A DNA stretch of 12,030 nt, taken from Methanosarcinaceae archaeon (GTDB lineage Archaea > Halobacteriota > Methanosarcinia > Methanosarcinales > Methanosarcinaceae). Position 1 is the stretch's first letter. Each line of letters starts with the position of its first letter. The stretch lies in NCBI GenBank assembly GCA_020793555.1, contig DQIO01000270.1, positions 1-12,030 of the forward strand. The letters are read 5' to 3'. The position numbers were made by a program, and so were the translations under genes. Under the pieces are notes generated by a model. It did not search any database. It had not been told where the DNA came from and saw only the letters and a program-made list of their open reading frames with translations. Below, piece after piece: positions 5,023 through 11,308 of the stretch.

Positions 5023-5985
5023 ATGAATGACAAAAACCCACTGAATACCCACATCCTTCTAAACAAAAAAACGATCATTTCATTTATCGTTTCCTTTGCG
5101 ATCCTTTATTTTCTAATAAAAAATATAGACATCAATGGTGTGATCGCAGTATCCAAAAACCTGGATATATCCATATATGTTCTTGCGATTGTAGTACATT
5201 ACTCATCTTTTTATGTTCGGGGATTGCGATGGAAAAAACTGCTGAATACAATACAAATACGGGCTAGCACTCCTGCACTTACAGAAATGGTATTCTTATC
5301 ATGGTTTGCCAACAGTATTGTTCCCGCAAAGATTGGGGATGTGTACAGAAGTTATTTGCTTAAGAAATATAACAGCGTACCAATATCAACTTCACTTGGC
5401 ACCATAGTGGTAGAACGTATATTCGATATAGCGGTCCTGCTGATATTATTAAGTGTCAGTGGAGCAATTCTTTTTAAAGACAAAATACCCGGACAGATCC
5501 TGCAATCCCTTGAGGTCGGGTATATCCTGCTCGGACTTGTGATATTGGGACTGGTTTTACTGAAGGTTTTCAAAGACCATATTATACGGATAGTTCCAAA
5601 CAAATTCGTCGTAATTTTTGAAAACCTGCACAGGAGCGTATACGATTCGTTTTCAAATACCAGCACCTTTGTGAATGTGTCAATCTTGACAATCGTTTCA
5701 TGGTTTTTGGAATCCGGACGGTTCTTGCTTGTCACAAGAGCACTCGGAGTAGATCTGGACCTGCCTGTAATCATCTTTGTTGTTCTGGCGGCATCGCTAT
5801 TGACCGCGATACCACTGACACCTGCCGGTCTTGGCGCTGTTGAAGTATCTATAGTCGGCATCCTGGCGATCATGGGAATTGACACTGCTGTCGGCACATC
5901 AATAGCATTGCTGGATAGGTTGATCAGTTACTGGAGCATACTTGCTGTTGGTGCGATAGTGTATGCAATTAGCGACAAGACGTAA
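5023..5985 (+). CDS. Flippase-like integral membrane protein (UPF0104 / TIGR00374, AglD C-terminal-domain type)
   Basis: A 320-residue protein with about eight hydrophobic segments. Family signatures are visible: RGLRWKKLL (66-74), NSIVPAKIGDVYR (97-109), the GTIVVERIFD block (126-135), IPLTPAGLGAVE (263-273) and LDRLISYW (297-304). The family (lysylphosphatidylglycerol synthase membrane-region-like, also the C-terminal part of haloarchaeal AglD) occurs in glycan and lipid-modification loci and is often annotated as flippase-like, but its chemistry is not well established. The start at 5023 has GGATGA six bases upstream. The length is normal for the stand-alone form. Its place between a GT39-like transferase and a GDP-sugar operon suggests a role in assembling or moving lipid-linked sugars; that role is inferred from context. 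Confidence 0.85.
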   Translation: MNDKNPLNTHILLNKKTIISFIVSFAILYFLIKNIDINGVIAVSKNLDISIYVLAIVVHYSSFYVRGLRWKKLLNTIQIRASTPALTEMVFLSWFANSIVPAKIGDVYRSYLLKKYNSVPISTSLGTIVVERIFDIAVLLILLSVSGAILFKDKIPGQILQSLEVGYILLGLVILGLVLLKVFKDHIIRIVPNKFVVIFENLHRSVYDSFSNTSTFVNVSILTIVSWFLESGRFLLVTRALGVDLDLPVIIFVVLAASLLTAIPLTPAGLGAVEVSIVGILAIMGIDTAVGTSIALLDRLISYWSILAVGAIVYAISDKT

Positions 5986-6144
5986 TAGATAATGAAAACA
6001 TGATTGAAATAATAACACAATCGAACATTCACAAGCAATTAATATATGCTAAGTTATATAAGAAATATCATATATTTGAACTTGTAATATCCAAATTCTA
6101 TTGATGTTAGTTTATAACTCATATTCATAAAGGAGCTGAAACCC
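5986..6144 (+). promoter_or_regulatory. Promoter and ribosome binding site of the GDP-sugar genes
   Basis: This 159-nt AT-rich spacer holds several TATA-like sequences (TTAATATATG near 6040, AGTTATATAAG near 6052). AAGGAG at 6130-6135 is a strong Shine-Dalgarno site. It sits 9 nt ahead of the ATA at 6145, and its position decides the start of manC, because the next in-frame ATG is 78 nt further on. Confidence 0.55.
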
Positions 6145-7521
6145 ATAAAATCCATAATCCTCGCAGGTGGTTCAGGTACACGTCTTTGGCCGCTTAGCCG
6201 CGAACAGTATCCAAAGCAATTCTTGAAATTAGGCGAAACATCATTCTTCCAGGACACATTTCTCAGATGTCTTGAAGTATCGGAGATATTAGACATATTT
6301 GTCGTAACCAATGAGTTCCAGAAGTTTTTCGTGATCGGGCAGATCAAAGAACTCGAATACGACATCCCGATCGATAATATACTTATAGAACCCGTGGGAA
6401 AAAATACCCTTCCAGCAATCTGTTTTGGAATGCGCGAGATTGTAAAAATATCCGGTCGATCCGTTGTGGGGGTATTCTCATCCGACCACATACTGGACAA
6501 AAGTGCAATGGAAACGATCAAAAATGCCGAGACATTGGCATCAGACCACCTTGTAACATTCGGAATTGTTCCAAAGTCCCCTCACACAGGATATGGATAT
6601 GTAAAACCTGCTGAGGCGCTTGGTGTTGGTTATAAAGTATCGGAATTCAGGGAAAAGCCGGGACTTGAGGATGCTAAAAAATATATCGAAGAAGGATGCC
6701 TCTGGAACAGCGGGATGTTTGTTTTCGATACTAATGTGTTTTTTGCCGAACTGAAAAACCATGCACCTGATATTTTTGATGCATTTGACATGTATGGTAA
6801 AACATCAGACATTGTAGAAACTTACAATCTCCTGCCATCAGTCTCGATAGACTATGGGATCATGGAAAAATCGAATAAGGTGGCAGTCGTCAAACTCGAC
6901 CAAAAGTGGAGCGATCTTGGAAATTTCAATGCTATATATGATGAGTTTGAAAAGGACGGAAATGGAAATGTTGTGTACGAATGTGACGGTGTCCTGATCG
7001 ATTCGACTGACAATTTGATATACTCAAAACCCGACAAGATCGTATCATTGATCGATGTCAACGACATGGTAGTGGTGGACACCCCTGATGCCCTGCTTGT
7101 TTGTCCGCGAGAGAGCAGCCAAAAAGTGAAAGATGTCGTGACTGCGCTTAAAGACTGCAATGATGAGAGGGCATACCTTCACCAGACTGTGTACAGACCG
7201 TGGGGTTCATACACGATACTTGAGAAGGCGGACAGGCACAAGATCAAGAATATCATGGTCATGCCTGAAAAATCACTGAGTCTGCAAATGCACCACCACC
7301 GTAGTGAGCACTGGGTTGTTGTGAAAGGGATGGCATGTGTGCAGGTCAACGGAAAAAAGTCATTCCTGCGGCAAGGCGAGAGTTCTTTTATACGGGCAGG
7401 AGAGAAACACCGGCTTTCAAACCACGGGAAGATACCGCTTGAGATCATTGAGGTGCAACTTGGGGAATGTGTTGATGAGGGCGATATTGTTCGGTTCGAT
7501 GATGATTATGGACGGGTATGA
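6145..7521 (+). CDS. manC: Mannose-1-phosphate guanylyltransferase / mannose-6-phosphate isomerase, apparent ATA start
   Basis: The predicted 458-residue enzyme makes GDP-mannose from mannose-1-phosphate and GTP, with a C-terminal cupin that would interconvert fructose-6-P and mannose-6-P. The nucleotidyltransferase motifs are AGGSGTRLWPLSRE (7-20), EPVGKNTLPA (82-91), SSDH (112-115), SPHTGYGY (145-152; the family usually has Glu where His147 is), FREKPG (168-173), WNSGMF (187-192), SIDYGIMEKS (234-243) and WSDLGNF (255-261). The isomerase part starts at YRPWGSY (350) with metal-site HHHRSEHW (383-390). The reading frame opens after a TAA at 6115 and holds no ATG, GTG or TTG before a TTG at 6208 and an ATG at 6223, both of which would delete the essential GGSGTRLWP loop. 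ATA 6145 lies exactly where the family's initiator Met stands (x-KSIILAGG) and 9 nt after AAGGAG. So this is either a rare AUA start or a G-to-A mutation. It is the first gene of the GDP-sugar set; gmd follows after 77 nt. Confidence 0.9.
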   Translation: MKSIILAGGSGTRLWPLSREQYPKQFLKLGETSFFQDTFLRCLEVSEILDIFVVTNEFQKFFVIGQIKELEYDIPIDNILIEPVGKNTLPAICFGMREIVKISGRSVVGVFSSDHILDKSAMETIKNAETLASDHLVTFGIVPKSPHTGYGYVKPAEALGVGYKVSEFREKPGLEDAKKYIEEGCLWNSGMFVFDTNVFFAELKNHAPDIFDAFDMYGKTSDIVETYNLLPSVSIDYGIMEKSNKVAVVKLDQKWSDLGNFNAIYDEFEKDGNGNVVYECDGVLIDSTDNLIYSKPDKIVSLIDVNDMVVVDTPDALLVCPRESSQKVKDVVTALKDCNDERAYLHQTVYRPWGSYTILEKADRHKIKNIMVMPEKSLSLQMHHHRSEHWVVVKGMACVQVNGKKSFLRQGESSFIRAGEKHRLSNHGKIPLEIIEVQLGECVDEGDIVRFDDDYGRV

Positions 7522-7586: not shown

Positions 7587-8561
<975 letters not shown>

Positions 8562-8573
8562 TCGAGGAAAAAT

Positions 8574-9491
8574 ATGGACCTAAACGGCGCATCAGTACTG
8601 GTGACAGGGGCTACTGGATTTGTTGGCCCATATCTTGTGCAGGCACTTTGTAGAAAGGGTGCGCGGGTAAAGATATTGTCCTTAAGCGAGGGTGATGTTT
8701 CTTCGGATCTGCGTGCTGCTGATCTGGAAATTGTAACAGGAGATATTACAAAACCTGAAACGCTTGATTTAGTTACAAAAGGTGTAGATATTGTGTTCCA
8801 CCTTGCTGCAATAGCGAATGTGGATTATGCAATACAAAACCCTGTGAAAACGTATGATGTGAATGTTCGAGGCACACTGAATCTTCTCGAAGAGGTGCGG
8901 AAATATCAGGTAAAGAAATTCGTGTATGTCAGTTCATCCCATATTTATGGAATACCGCAGTACATTCCAGTGGATGAGAAACACCCAATCGCGCCGCGTG
9001 AACCATATTCAGCAAGCAAGGCTGCGGCCGAGAATATTGTGAACAGTTATTCCAATACATATGGAATTAATACCGCGGTCGTACGACCTTTTAATATATA
9101 TGGACCGGGGCAGGATGAGAGTTTTTTAATCCCTTCTATTGTAAAACAGGCGCTTTATGGTAATGCTATAATGGAAGTTGGGAATCTTGAACCTACCCGG
9201 GATTTCACATATATCACTGATATAGTGGCTGGTTTTTTGAAGATCGCTGAATCCGGATCCGGAGTATATAATATTGGATCCGGAGTTGAGGTGAAGGTCG
9301 GCGATGTTGTTCATAAGATCGTAGATATTATTAATCCTGATATTGAAATTCGGCCTGTTGTTGACAGGCAGCGGTCCGGTGGGGTGGAGATACCGCGGTT
9401 GTGTGCGGATATTTCGAGGTTGAAGGGGATTGGGTGGGAACCTAATGTTGGGTTGGATGATGGATTAAGAAAAATGATCAATATGATATAA
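8574..9491 (+). CDS. rmd: GDP-4-keto-6-deoxy-D-mannose reductase-like SDR (GDP-D-rhamnose synthesis)
   Basis: The predicted 305-residue extended SDR has the Rossmann signature TGATGFVG (11-18), NVRGTLNLLE (97-106), serines 120-122 in VSSSHIYG and Tyr145/Lys149 in PYSASK. RPFNIYGPGQ (171-180) and VGNLEPTRDF (202-211) resemble RMD reductases, which use RPFN-x-x-GPGQ and VGNL-x-x-RDF. With gmd only 12 nt upstream, the likely reaction is reduction of GDP-4-keto-6-deoxy-mannose to GDP-D-rhamnose. Start 8574 has GAGG at 8564-8567 with a 6-nt spacer. Alternatives are a GDP-6-deoxy-talose-forming reductase or a UDP-sugar 4-epimerase-like enzyme; the family split within SDRs is fine, so the substrate call leans on context. 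Confidence 0.8.
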   Translation: MDLNGASVLVTGATGFVGPYLVQALCRKGARVKILSLSEGDVSSDLRAADLEIVTGDITKPETLDLVTKGVDIVFHLAAIANVDYAIQNPVKTYDVNVRGTLNLLEEVRKYQVKKFVYVSSSHIYGIPQYIPVDEKHPIAPREPYSASKAAAENIVNSYSNTYGINTAVVRPFNIYGPGQDESFLIPSIVKQALYGNAIMEVGNLEPTRDFTYITDIVAGFLKIAESGSGVYNIGSGVEVKVGDVVHKIVDIINPDIEIRPVVDRQRSGGVEIPRLCADISRLKGIGWEPNVGLDDGLRKMINMI

Positions 9492-9717: not shown

Positions 9718-10038
9718 ATGTTTCTTGAACACGATCGTCTCAAAGATTTGTTTTTAAATGATAGATTCATCATTTCAAATCATGCAAGGATCAGGATGTT
9801 TCAAAGAAATATATCAACTGCAGATATCAGGGAAGTAACAAGCCGTGGTGAAATTCTAGAGGAATATCCGGACGATGAGCCATGTCCGGCAGCATTGTTC
9901 TTGGGATTTCCAAATGGACGTCCCTGCCATGTTGTAGTAGCGCAGTGCGAGGATCATGCAAGGGTCATAACTGTTTATTCGCCTGAAAAAGAGAAATGGA
10001 TCGATTATAAGGTAAGGAGAAGTAATGATGAAACCTGA
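9718..10038 (+). CDS. DUF4258 domain protein, probable toxin-like partner of YgiT-type protein
   Basis: A 106-residue protein with the DUF4258 pattern: SNHARIRMFQRNIS (20-33, His22, Arg24, Arg30), a central GEILEEYPDDEPCP (44-57), LFLGFPNGRPCHVVVA (60-75, His71), then ITVYSPEKEKW (84-94). DUF4258 proteins have a RelE/BrnT-like small fold and are often found paired with small zinc-ribbon proteins, as here. RNase activity is presumed from this arrangement, not proved. The gene has its own TATA box (9679-9687) and a short leader with GCGGTAT ahead of the ATG. Its last 14 nt overlap the start of the next gene, so the two are translationally coupled, with the toxin-like gene first. Confidence 0.8.
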   Translation: MFLEHDRLKDLFLNDRFIISNHARIRMFQRNISTADIREVTSRGEILEEYPDDEPCPAALFLGFPNGRPCHVVVAQCEDHARVITVYSPEKEKWIDYKVRRSNDET

Positions 10039-10282
10039 TAGATGTACTTTCTGCAAAGGAAAACTTATTGAAGGCAAAACCGAATTCGTAGTGAAAGTTG
10101 GTGAAAAGGTACTTACTGTTAAAGATATTTCTGCATATATCTGTGAAGAATGTGGTGAAGCTTATTATACACCGGAAGTGTCGGAAAAGATCGATCAACT
10201 CATGAAGAAATTCCATGAATCTACACTGCTTATGCATCCGGTTGCAGCAGGTGAGTTGAGTTTGGGCGAAGCGGTGGCATAG
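10025..10282 (+). CDS. YgiT-type zinc-finger protein (MqsA-like, N-terminal domain only)
   Basis: The predicted 85-residue protein has two Cys pairs, C7-x-x-C10 and C40-x-x-C43 (YICEECGEAYYTPE), that form the zinc ribbon of YgiT/MqsA antitoxin N-terminal domains. Residues 51-85 are a short helical tail (EVSEKIDQLMKKF). The C-terminal HTH (Xre) domain of classical MqsA is absent; short forms like this are common next to DUF4258 genes. The first ATG is 10025, and a second ATG at 10028 is equally possible. Both lie within the 3' end of the DUF4258 gene, so expression is coupled. Likely role: antitoxin or partner binding of the DUF4258 protein (inference from gene pairing). Confidence 0.85.
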   Translation: MMKPDRCTFCKGKLIEGKTEFVVKVGEKVLTVKDISAYICEECGEAYYTPEVSEKIDQLMKKFHESTLLMHPVAAGELSLGEAVA

Positions 10283-10784: not shown

Positions 10785-10854
10785 GATTATTCTTTACGAT
10801 CGAGCGGTGAAGTATACTAAATATGTTACAAAATTATGCATCACTTGGCATTAA
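10777..10854 (+). pseudogene. RelE-type toxin gene, 5' remnant
   Basis: ATG 10777 overlaps the antitoxin's stop codon (coupled start). The frame reads MYEIILYDRAVKYTKYVTK and stops at TAA 10852-10854 after 25 residues. MYEIIL-x-x-RAVK is the usual first strand and helix of RelE/ParE toxins, which are normally about 85-95 residues, so all catalytic parts are missing. The remnant ends at the point where the minus-strand hicB gene ends (10851), suggesting that hicAB arrival or a deletion cut the toxin. Confidence 0.6.
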
Positions 10855-11075
10855 GCAATTGCAGTTACACTCACATTTCCAATGACAAATTCCTTATTAA
10901 TTTGTATCTCTTGAAGATCTTCTTTTAGAGCTGTTATGTGAACCTCGATTGCTTCTTTCATATTTTCCATTGTTTCTTCCACAGTTTCGCCTTGGGAAAA
11001 ACAACCGGGAAGTACCGGAACCTCTCCCCAAAAACCTCCATCTTCGTCTTTATAAACCAATACAGTATATTCCAT
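10851..11075 (-). CDS. hicB: HicB-family antitoxin, short form
   Basis: The predicted 74-residue protein has the HicB core: MEYTVLVYKDEDGGFWGEVP (1-20), LPGCFSQGETVEETMENMKE (22-41) and AIEVHITAL (42-50). This partial RNase H-like fold binds and blocks HicA. The C-terminal part (51-74) is short and shows no clear HTH or ribbon-helix-helix, as in many archaeal short HicBs. ATG 11075 has AGGAGA at 11088-11083 with a 7-nt spacer, and this site overlaps the hicA stop region, so the two genes are coupled (11-nt gap). The stop codon TAA is at 10853-10851 and overlaps the broken RelE gene on the other strand. Confidence 0.92.
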   Translation of the reverse strand: MEYTVLVYKDEDGGFWGEVPVLPGCFSQGETVEETMENMKEAIEVHITALKEDLQEIQINKEFVIGNVSVTAIA

Positions 11076-11086
11076 GACATTCTCTC

Positions 11087-11308
11087 CTATTTCATCAATT
11101 TCTGAAAATCTTCTACTGTCAAGCCGGATTTTTGAATGGCTGCTCTGAGCAAGCCAACTTTCAGGTCACTTGAACAAGGTAATGTGAGAATCTGACCGTT
11201 CGGCATCTTTATATTAATATGATCTCCTTTGCCTTTTCGTATGATGCCTCCTGCTTTTGTAAAAGCTTTTATTGCTTTTTTGCAGTTGATCCTCCTAAGT
11301 TGACCCAC
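11087..11308 (-). CDS. hicA: HicA-family mRNA interferase toxin
   Basis: The predicted 73-residue toxin has the dsRBD-like HicA fold: INCKKAIKAFTKAGG (7-21), RKGKGDHINIKMPNG (24-38) with the catalytic His30 in the G-D-H motif, LTLPCSSDLKVGLLRAAIQK (41-60) and the SGLTVEDF tail (61-68). It would cleave mRNA and tmRNA-like targets until bound by HicB. The start is GTG 11308, with AAGGAG at 11321-11316 and a 7-nt spacer; length is typical for the family. It is the first gene of the hicAB operon. No damage is visible, so the module looks functional. Confidence 0.92.
   Translation of the reverse strand: MGQLRRINCKKAIKAFTKAGGIIRKGKGDHINIKMPNGQILTLPCSSDLKVGLLRAAIQKSGLTVEDFQKLMK

Follow-up and report, generated by a model that had tools for sequence, protein, structure and literature searches.

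The manC frame in the window (the whole 12,030-nucleotide stretch of Methanosarcinaceae DNA analysed here) raises the question of the codon from which it is translated. This frame remains open over 6118-7521, and in the window sequence there is no in-frame ATG, GTG or TTG between the TAA that precedes it and a TTG at 6223. The original prediction had proposed an ATA (AUA) at 6145 as the start, and on re-reading the sequence we could confirm the lack of an upstream canonical codon, the closing TAA at 6115, the AAGGAG motif at 6130-6135 and the 9 nt that separate it from the ATA. The rest of manC is intact as described, running to a TGA at 7519-7521 with its GGSGTRLWPLSR loop (Table 1). Two codons had been misread: 6208 carries no TTG, and 6223 carries TTG rather than ATG. 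Other in-frame codons upstream of 6145, namely CTG at 6136 and ATA at 6121 and 6127, all abut or precede the Shine-Dalgarno (SD) sequence, in which GGAGCTGA is one base off GGAGGTGA, the sequence that we take to be the complement of the 16S tail.

Table 1. Features of the manC start region in the window.
Feature	Position	Strand	Basis
Closing in-frame TAA upstream of manC	6115..6117	+	Sequence read
Shine-Dalgarno (SD) AAGGAGCTGA	6130..6139	+	AAGGAG core 6130-6135
ATA, proposed manC start codon	6145..6147	+	AUA/AUU/AUC at homologous column; onset of codon periodicity
manC, bifunctional mannose-1-phosphate guanylyltransferase / mannose-6-phosphate isomerase, 458 aa from ATA	6145..7521	+	TIGR01479, PF00483, PF22640, PF01050
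GGSGTRLWPLSR loop	6166..6201	+	Lost with translation start at TTG 6223
TTG, first canonical in-frame codon (codon 27)	6223..6225	+	P0001/P0002 homologues start at same residue

The choice of start codon matters for the product. The 458-aa form scores 468.5 bits against TIGR01479 (cutoff 372.95) and covers profile positions 2-467 of 467, and the 432-aa form from TTG 6223 also passes the cutoff with 413.0 bits. A start at this TTG shifts the beginning of the PF00483 match from profile position 1 to 30, with the first 29 positions lost, and the GGSGTRLWPLSR loop, which we take to bind the nucleotide, is part of the product only if translation begins further upstream. The guanylyltransferase chain of structure 2x5s, presumably the Thermotoga maritima protein, aligns from ManC residue 2 through the GGSG loop. 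Two sugar-nucleotide dehydratase/epimerase genes follow manC at 7599-9491 (+), the first of them GDP-mannose 4,6-dehydratase-like, and manC may therefore feed a deoxysugar pathway. Further along the window, a HicA toxin-like gene (PF07927) pairs with a HicB-like antitoxin gene (PF15919) at 10854-11308 (-), and at 9718-10282 (+) a DUF4258 protein is followed by a small protein with weak, below-cutoff similarity to the MqsA antitoxin, the two being possibly a toxin-antitoxin pair.

We then compared the manC start among relatives. A search of 99 relatives matched 68 of them (E up to 1e-3), a search of 237 genomes of the class, overlapping with the former set, matched 125 (E up to 1e-60), and a search of contig sequences returned 53 loci. 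The start regions were read codon by codon, and removal of duplicates and outgroups left 131 distinct Methanosarcinales manC starts. The codon at the start column is AUA in 71, AUU in 31, AUC in 8, AUG in 17, GUU in 2, GUC in 1 and GUG in 1. AUH (AUA, AUU or AUC) is found in 110/131 start regions, in 17 of the 19 genera and all three families with a readable start. Among the starts of the window's genus, AUH is carried by six G-coded rows and by an additional G001 copy (read from L031), and AUG by a further copy, L063, whose equal coordinates match it to G006. The tree of 127 proteins requires at least eight changes between AUG and AUH. The comparison indicates that AUH is present at this column more than by chance and across the order. 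Three Methanolobus rows (L014, L018 and L182) have GUU or GUC at the column; L182 has a stop 9 codons upstream, an ATG 20 codons downstream and nothing canonical between, and its start may be the GUC or a nearby AUU.

The SD is similarly widespread. A GGAG lies within 20 nt upstream in 90/110 AUH rows, and in 88/110, the window included, it ends 8 or 9 nt before the AUH codon. Most of the other AUH rows have an upstream ATG or GTG or a different SD form, as described below. At canonical starts, taken from rough gene calls made in this analysis, GGAG spacing of 8-9 nt was seen in 35/61 Methanococcoides cases, where it forms the peak, and in 14/54 Methanosarcina and 10/35 Methanoperedens cases; the match with the AUH spacing is clear for Methanococcoides and loose for the other two genera. 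The median SD duplex energy is -9.0 in the 110 AUH rows versus -4.3 in the 17 AUG rows (Mann-Whitney p = 2.3e-5, uncorrected for relatedness), and values of -7.5 or lower occur in 92/110 and 2/17, respectively. A trade-off between SD and start codon cannot reach significance on the tree, since it offers only six independent pairs, of which about four agree, none disagrees and two show no difference (p 0.125-0.25).

Altogether, the comparison of sequences shows where the start lies, that it persists across the order, that many species lack any canonical alternative, and how the SD is spaced. The AUA start of manC is very likely real and old, and we are confident in proposing that manC would be translated from AUA 6145 via the ordinary initiator Met-tRNA. 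The CAU anticodon of this tRNA would read AUA through a third-position mismatch, while the strong SD 8-9 nt upstream would place the ribosome on the codon and probably make up for its weakness. Across Methanosarcinales, any of the four bases would then be acceptable at the third position of the start codon. Met would be the first ManC residue and initiation at the AUA would be weak, so that manC output may stay modest and may respond to aIF1, an initiation factor involved in start-codon checking.

It is tempting to go a step further and ask whether selection maintains the weak AUH start for the sake of regulation, tying manC output to start-codon stringency (aIF1/aIF1A/aIF2) by analogy with bacterial infC. 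This reading, which would add to initiation at the AUA rather than exclude it, appears rather doubtful. The persistence of AUH across the order is consistent with it, and strong SDs with AUH and weaker SDs with AUG suggest a balanced output; PMC6237735 reports that aIF1 promotes discrimination against non-canonical starts. In contrast, changes at the third base are about as frequent as at neighbouring silent sites, with 22 on one tree versus 34 and 24 at those sites, and this similar rate gives no clear sign of selection for AUH itself. G occupies the third base in 12% of starts versus 22% of fourfold sites over the whole gene, and at neighbouring codons 6-8 it is found in 2-3 of about 120 sequences (2% at codon 7). 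Tolerance of any AUN accounts for this pattern no less well than would selection in favour of a weak start. The at least eight switches between AUG and AUH also speak against a regulatory role, as does the region around the start, where Rfam yields nothing at E up to 1 (window positions 5700-6500) and folding is no better than in shuffles (z = +1.35); on these results we rejected an RNA element at the manC start. Regulation of GDP-mannose supply by start-codon stringency would be a possibility.

Alternatively, the column could be an internal isoleucine, with the true start lying upstream in frame at an ATG, GTG or TTG, or at CTG 6136 in the window. We consider this improbable, even though the swaps among AUA, AUU and AUC, together with the GUU and GUC of the three Methanolobus rows, do resemble Ile/Val codons. 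An in-frame ATG is present 3 codons upstream in 30/110 AUH rows, mainly in Methanosarcina and mostly touching the GGAG, and 2 codons upstream in 10/110; in these rows initiation may occur there or at the column. However, 46/110 AUH rows have no ATG, GTG or TTG between the in-frame stop and the column, and in 14 of these 46 the stop lies within 6 codons, leaving stretches as short as TGC-AAC-ATC (L179) or GGA-GAT-GAA-AAA-ATA (L102). The upstream CTG of the window and the ATG of Methanosarcina touch the GGAG without a spacer, and a spacer of 8 nt, 1 nt shorter, shifts the GGAG-adjacent ATG out of frame, as in Methanosarcina L153, L158, L159 and L162-L164 and in L115 of the window's genus. Among the 20 AUH rows lacking GGAG, 12 have an in-frame ATG or GTG within 8 codons upstream, which may have taken over and left the column as an internal Ile, and most of the others have a different SD form, for example GGGG or GGTG.

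Codon periodicity also argues against an upstream start. We calculated the mismatch per codon position over 4609 pairs among 105 AUH manC genes. Codons -11 to -1 gave a mismatch of about 0.5-0.65 at all three positions, whereas codons +2 to +9 gave 0.018/0.018/0.496. Within the start codon itself, the first two bases show zero mismatch because the rows were chosen as AUH. As periodicity is absent upstream and full from codon 2 onward, coding constraint starts at the AUH codon.

Initiation by the ordinary initiator tRNA at this codon was also weighed against a second initiator tRNA with another anticodon reading AUH, which we regard as very improbable. The 47 tRNA genes found in the complete Methanosarcina genome G048 include three with a CAU and two with a GAU anticodon, and one of the CAU tRNAs resembles an initiator, judged by features that we take to be initiator hallmarks. 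No UAU-anticodon tRNA was found in G048 among the 150 of 228 first-look candidates that were scored, which included no tRNA-Trp; on this incomplete list, a special initiator tRNA is unlikely.

The original prediction had left open a choice between a real AUA start and a recent ATG-to-ATA change, and only the former stands. A recent mutation or a sequencing error crippling manC here, which would concern the single manC copy found in the window genome (G000, 93% complete), is extremely unlikely, since AUH occupies the homologous column in three families and 17/19 genera and the comparison with close relatives shows that the separately assembled G001, with a 95% identical protein, also has ATA. 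We likewise attach next to no weight to an out-of-frame ATG in GGAGATG combined with a frameshift, or to a mini-ORF feeding re-initiation at the AUA: many rows do have GGAGATG, with its ATG frame ending at a TAA that overlaps the AUA, but the window and the majority of Methanococcoides rows read GGAGCTG instead, an ATG beside the GGAG is lacking from Methanolobus rows such as L010 and L135, and the overlapping stop is absent from AUU and AUC rows.

Further candidates were found in scans for a strong SD followed by AUH in a Methanosarcina genome (400 kb) and a Methanoperedens genome (340 kb), and four from Methanosarcina were followed in relatives. The first is a GH15-like gene (L219:8016-10025 (-), L252-L278) of Methanosarcina and relatives. 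We read 30 loci, of which two were too partial and one was a distant paralogue; AUH is present in 25 of the 27 readable ones (AUU 15, AUA 7, AUC 3, besides one ACG in L268 and one AUG). An in-frame TGA directly precedes the AUU in L252-L254, and a GTG lies three codons upstream, inside the SD, in seven rows. The bactofilin-like gene (L226:17956-19083 (-), L339-L367) has AUU in 19 and AUC in 10 of 29 rows, 14 of them with a GTG three codons upstream that could mislead annotation.

Methanogenesis marker protein 11 (TIGR03280; L217:9845-10837 (-), L312-L338) matched in 27/30 genomes, and AUU is found in 27/27 Methanosarcina rows, 14 of them with a TGA directly before it. A downstream start must be considered for this family, since the TIGR03280 model covers only residues 27 onward, entries from Methanolobus and Methanococcoides mostly have a length of 302-303 aa and a GTG occurs after 25 codons in many rows. 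However, in L312, L314, L316 and L338 there is no canonical codon for 75 codons, and coding constraint is present over codons 10-25. Silent sites in the 8 codons after the marker 11 start have a mismatch of 0.05, versus 0.38 in codons 10-25, hinting at a constraint at the RNA level.

The fourth candidate, the aldo/keto reductase, was rejected as a fixed AUH gene (ATG in 25/30 loci, ATA in 5/30). Scan candidates L196, L205 and L224 are, in our judgement, probably false hits inside genes, L222 has an ATG directly before the AUH, and L241 has one two codons after it. N-termini resembling secretion signals by eye were seen behind strong SDs at L223:11597-12298 (+) and L238:14065-14466 (+), both with ATA, L233:8145-8852 (-) with ATT and L242:6646-10224 (-) with ATC; in L233 and L238 the codon is also preceded, at a distance of a few codons, by a TTG or GTG. 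In the Methanococcoides sample, which was chosen to include manC, manC is the sole convincing AUH case. A genome-wide excess of AUH at SD-phased positions was not significant in three genomes covering about 1.14 Mb (1/14, 3/16 and 1/8 hits), and a second test gave ATH 11/2296 versus 46/16213 (p = 0.089), with GAH as high at 13/2320. In 45 named loci AUH accounts for 7/30 SD-phased hits (p = 0.039), a set biased by having been fetched through manC. As the genome-wide excess is not significant, we limit our claim to the families checked in relatives. We can suggest only tentatively that Methanosarcinales tolerate any AUN start with a strong SD and might use AUA, AUU or AUC in perhaps tens of genes per genome. 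If true, third-base start checking would be looser in Methanosarcinales than in other archaea, and such starts would often be misannotated.

For manC, the presence of AUH at the same spot in most relatives means that gene finders can mark the start wrongly. The expectation that automatic annotation would begin at 6223 is borne out by two 432-aa database proteins, P0001 and P0002 (95% and 91% identical), which start at the residue of this TTG, whereas two NCBI-sourced entries begin at the AUH column: P0021 from Methanolobus profundi (corresponding contig L135, ATA) and P0105 from Methanosarcina horonobensis (L158, ATT). Gene finders limited to ATG, GTG and TTG can thus drop the ManC active-site loop, as in the 432-aa entries, and ribosome profiling pipelines with the same restriction would miss AUH starts. 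The order may serve as a natural system for studying archaeal start-codon checking and the balance of SD strength and codon strength.

The literature on archaeal initiation names AUG, GUG and UUG as starts in PMC7531240, and a word search for AUA or AUU found neither there nor in PMC8211752. Ribo-seq of M. mazei (PMC11456600) places unannotated small ORFs at ATG, TTG, GTG and CTG, and the same word search found no AUA or AUU in that text. AUA, AUU or AUC starts in Methanosarcina, or a conserved archaeal AUH start, appeared in no title or abstract returned by full-text searches of the literature outside subscription papers. In PMC4611024, AUU, AUC and AUA are non-canonical bacterial starts that are discriminated by IF3, unlike AUG, GUG and UUG; these are the same triplets as in manC, but in bacteria. 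Such starts have been described as bacterial rarities, and here an archaeal order keeps them at one codon in many genera.

The protein itself is ordinary, belonging to the same enzyme family as TIGR01479 (GMP_PMI) and 2x5s, and only its start codon is unusual. The closest parallel is bacterial infC (and pcnB), a gene normal in other respects whose AUU start is shared among species; these starts act through IF3, and infC regulates itself. manC is likewise normal apart from its conserved AUH start, whose middle base is U, and like infC it has no usable AUG, GUG or UUG N-terminally, a conserved column and a correctly spaced SD. In contrast, it is archaeal, encodes no initiation factor and swaps AUA, AUU and AUC freely. 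The AUA of manC is thus very likely a conserved, SD-supported non-canonical start, new in archaea, of a kind known from bacteria.
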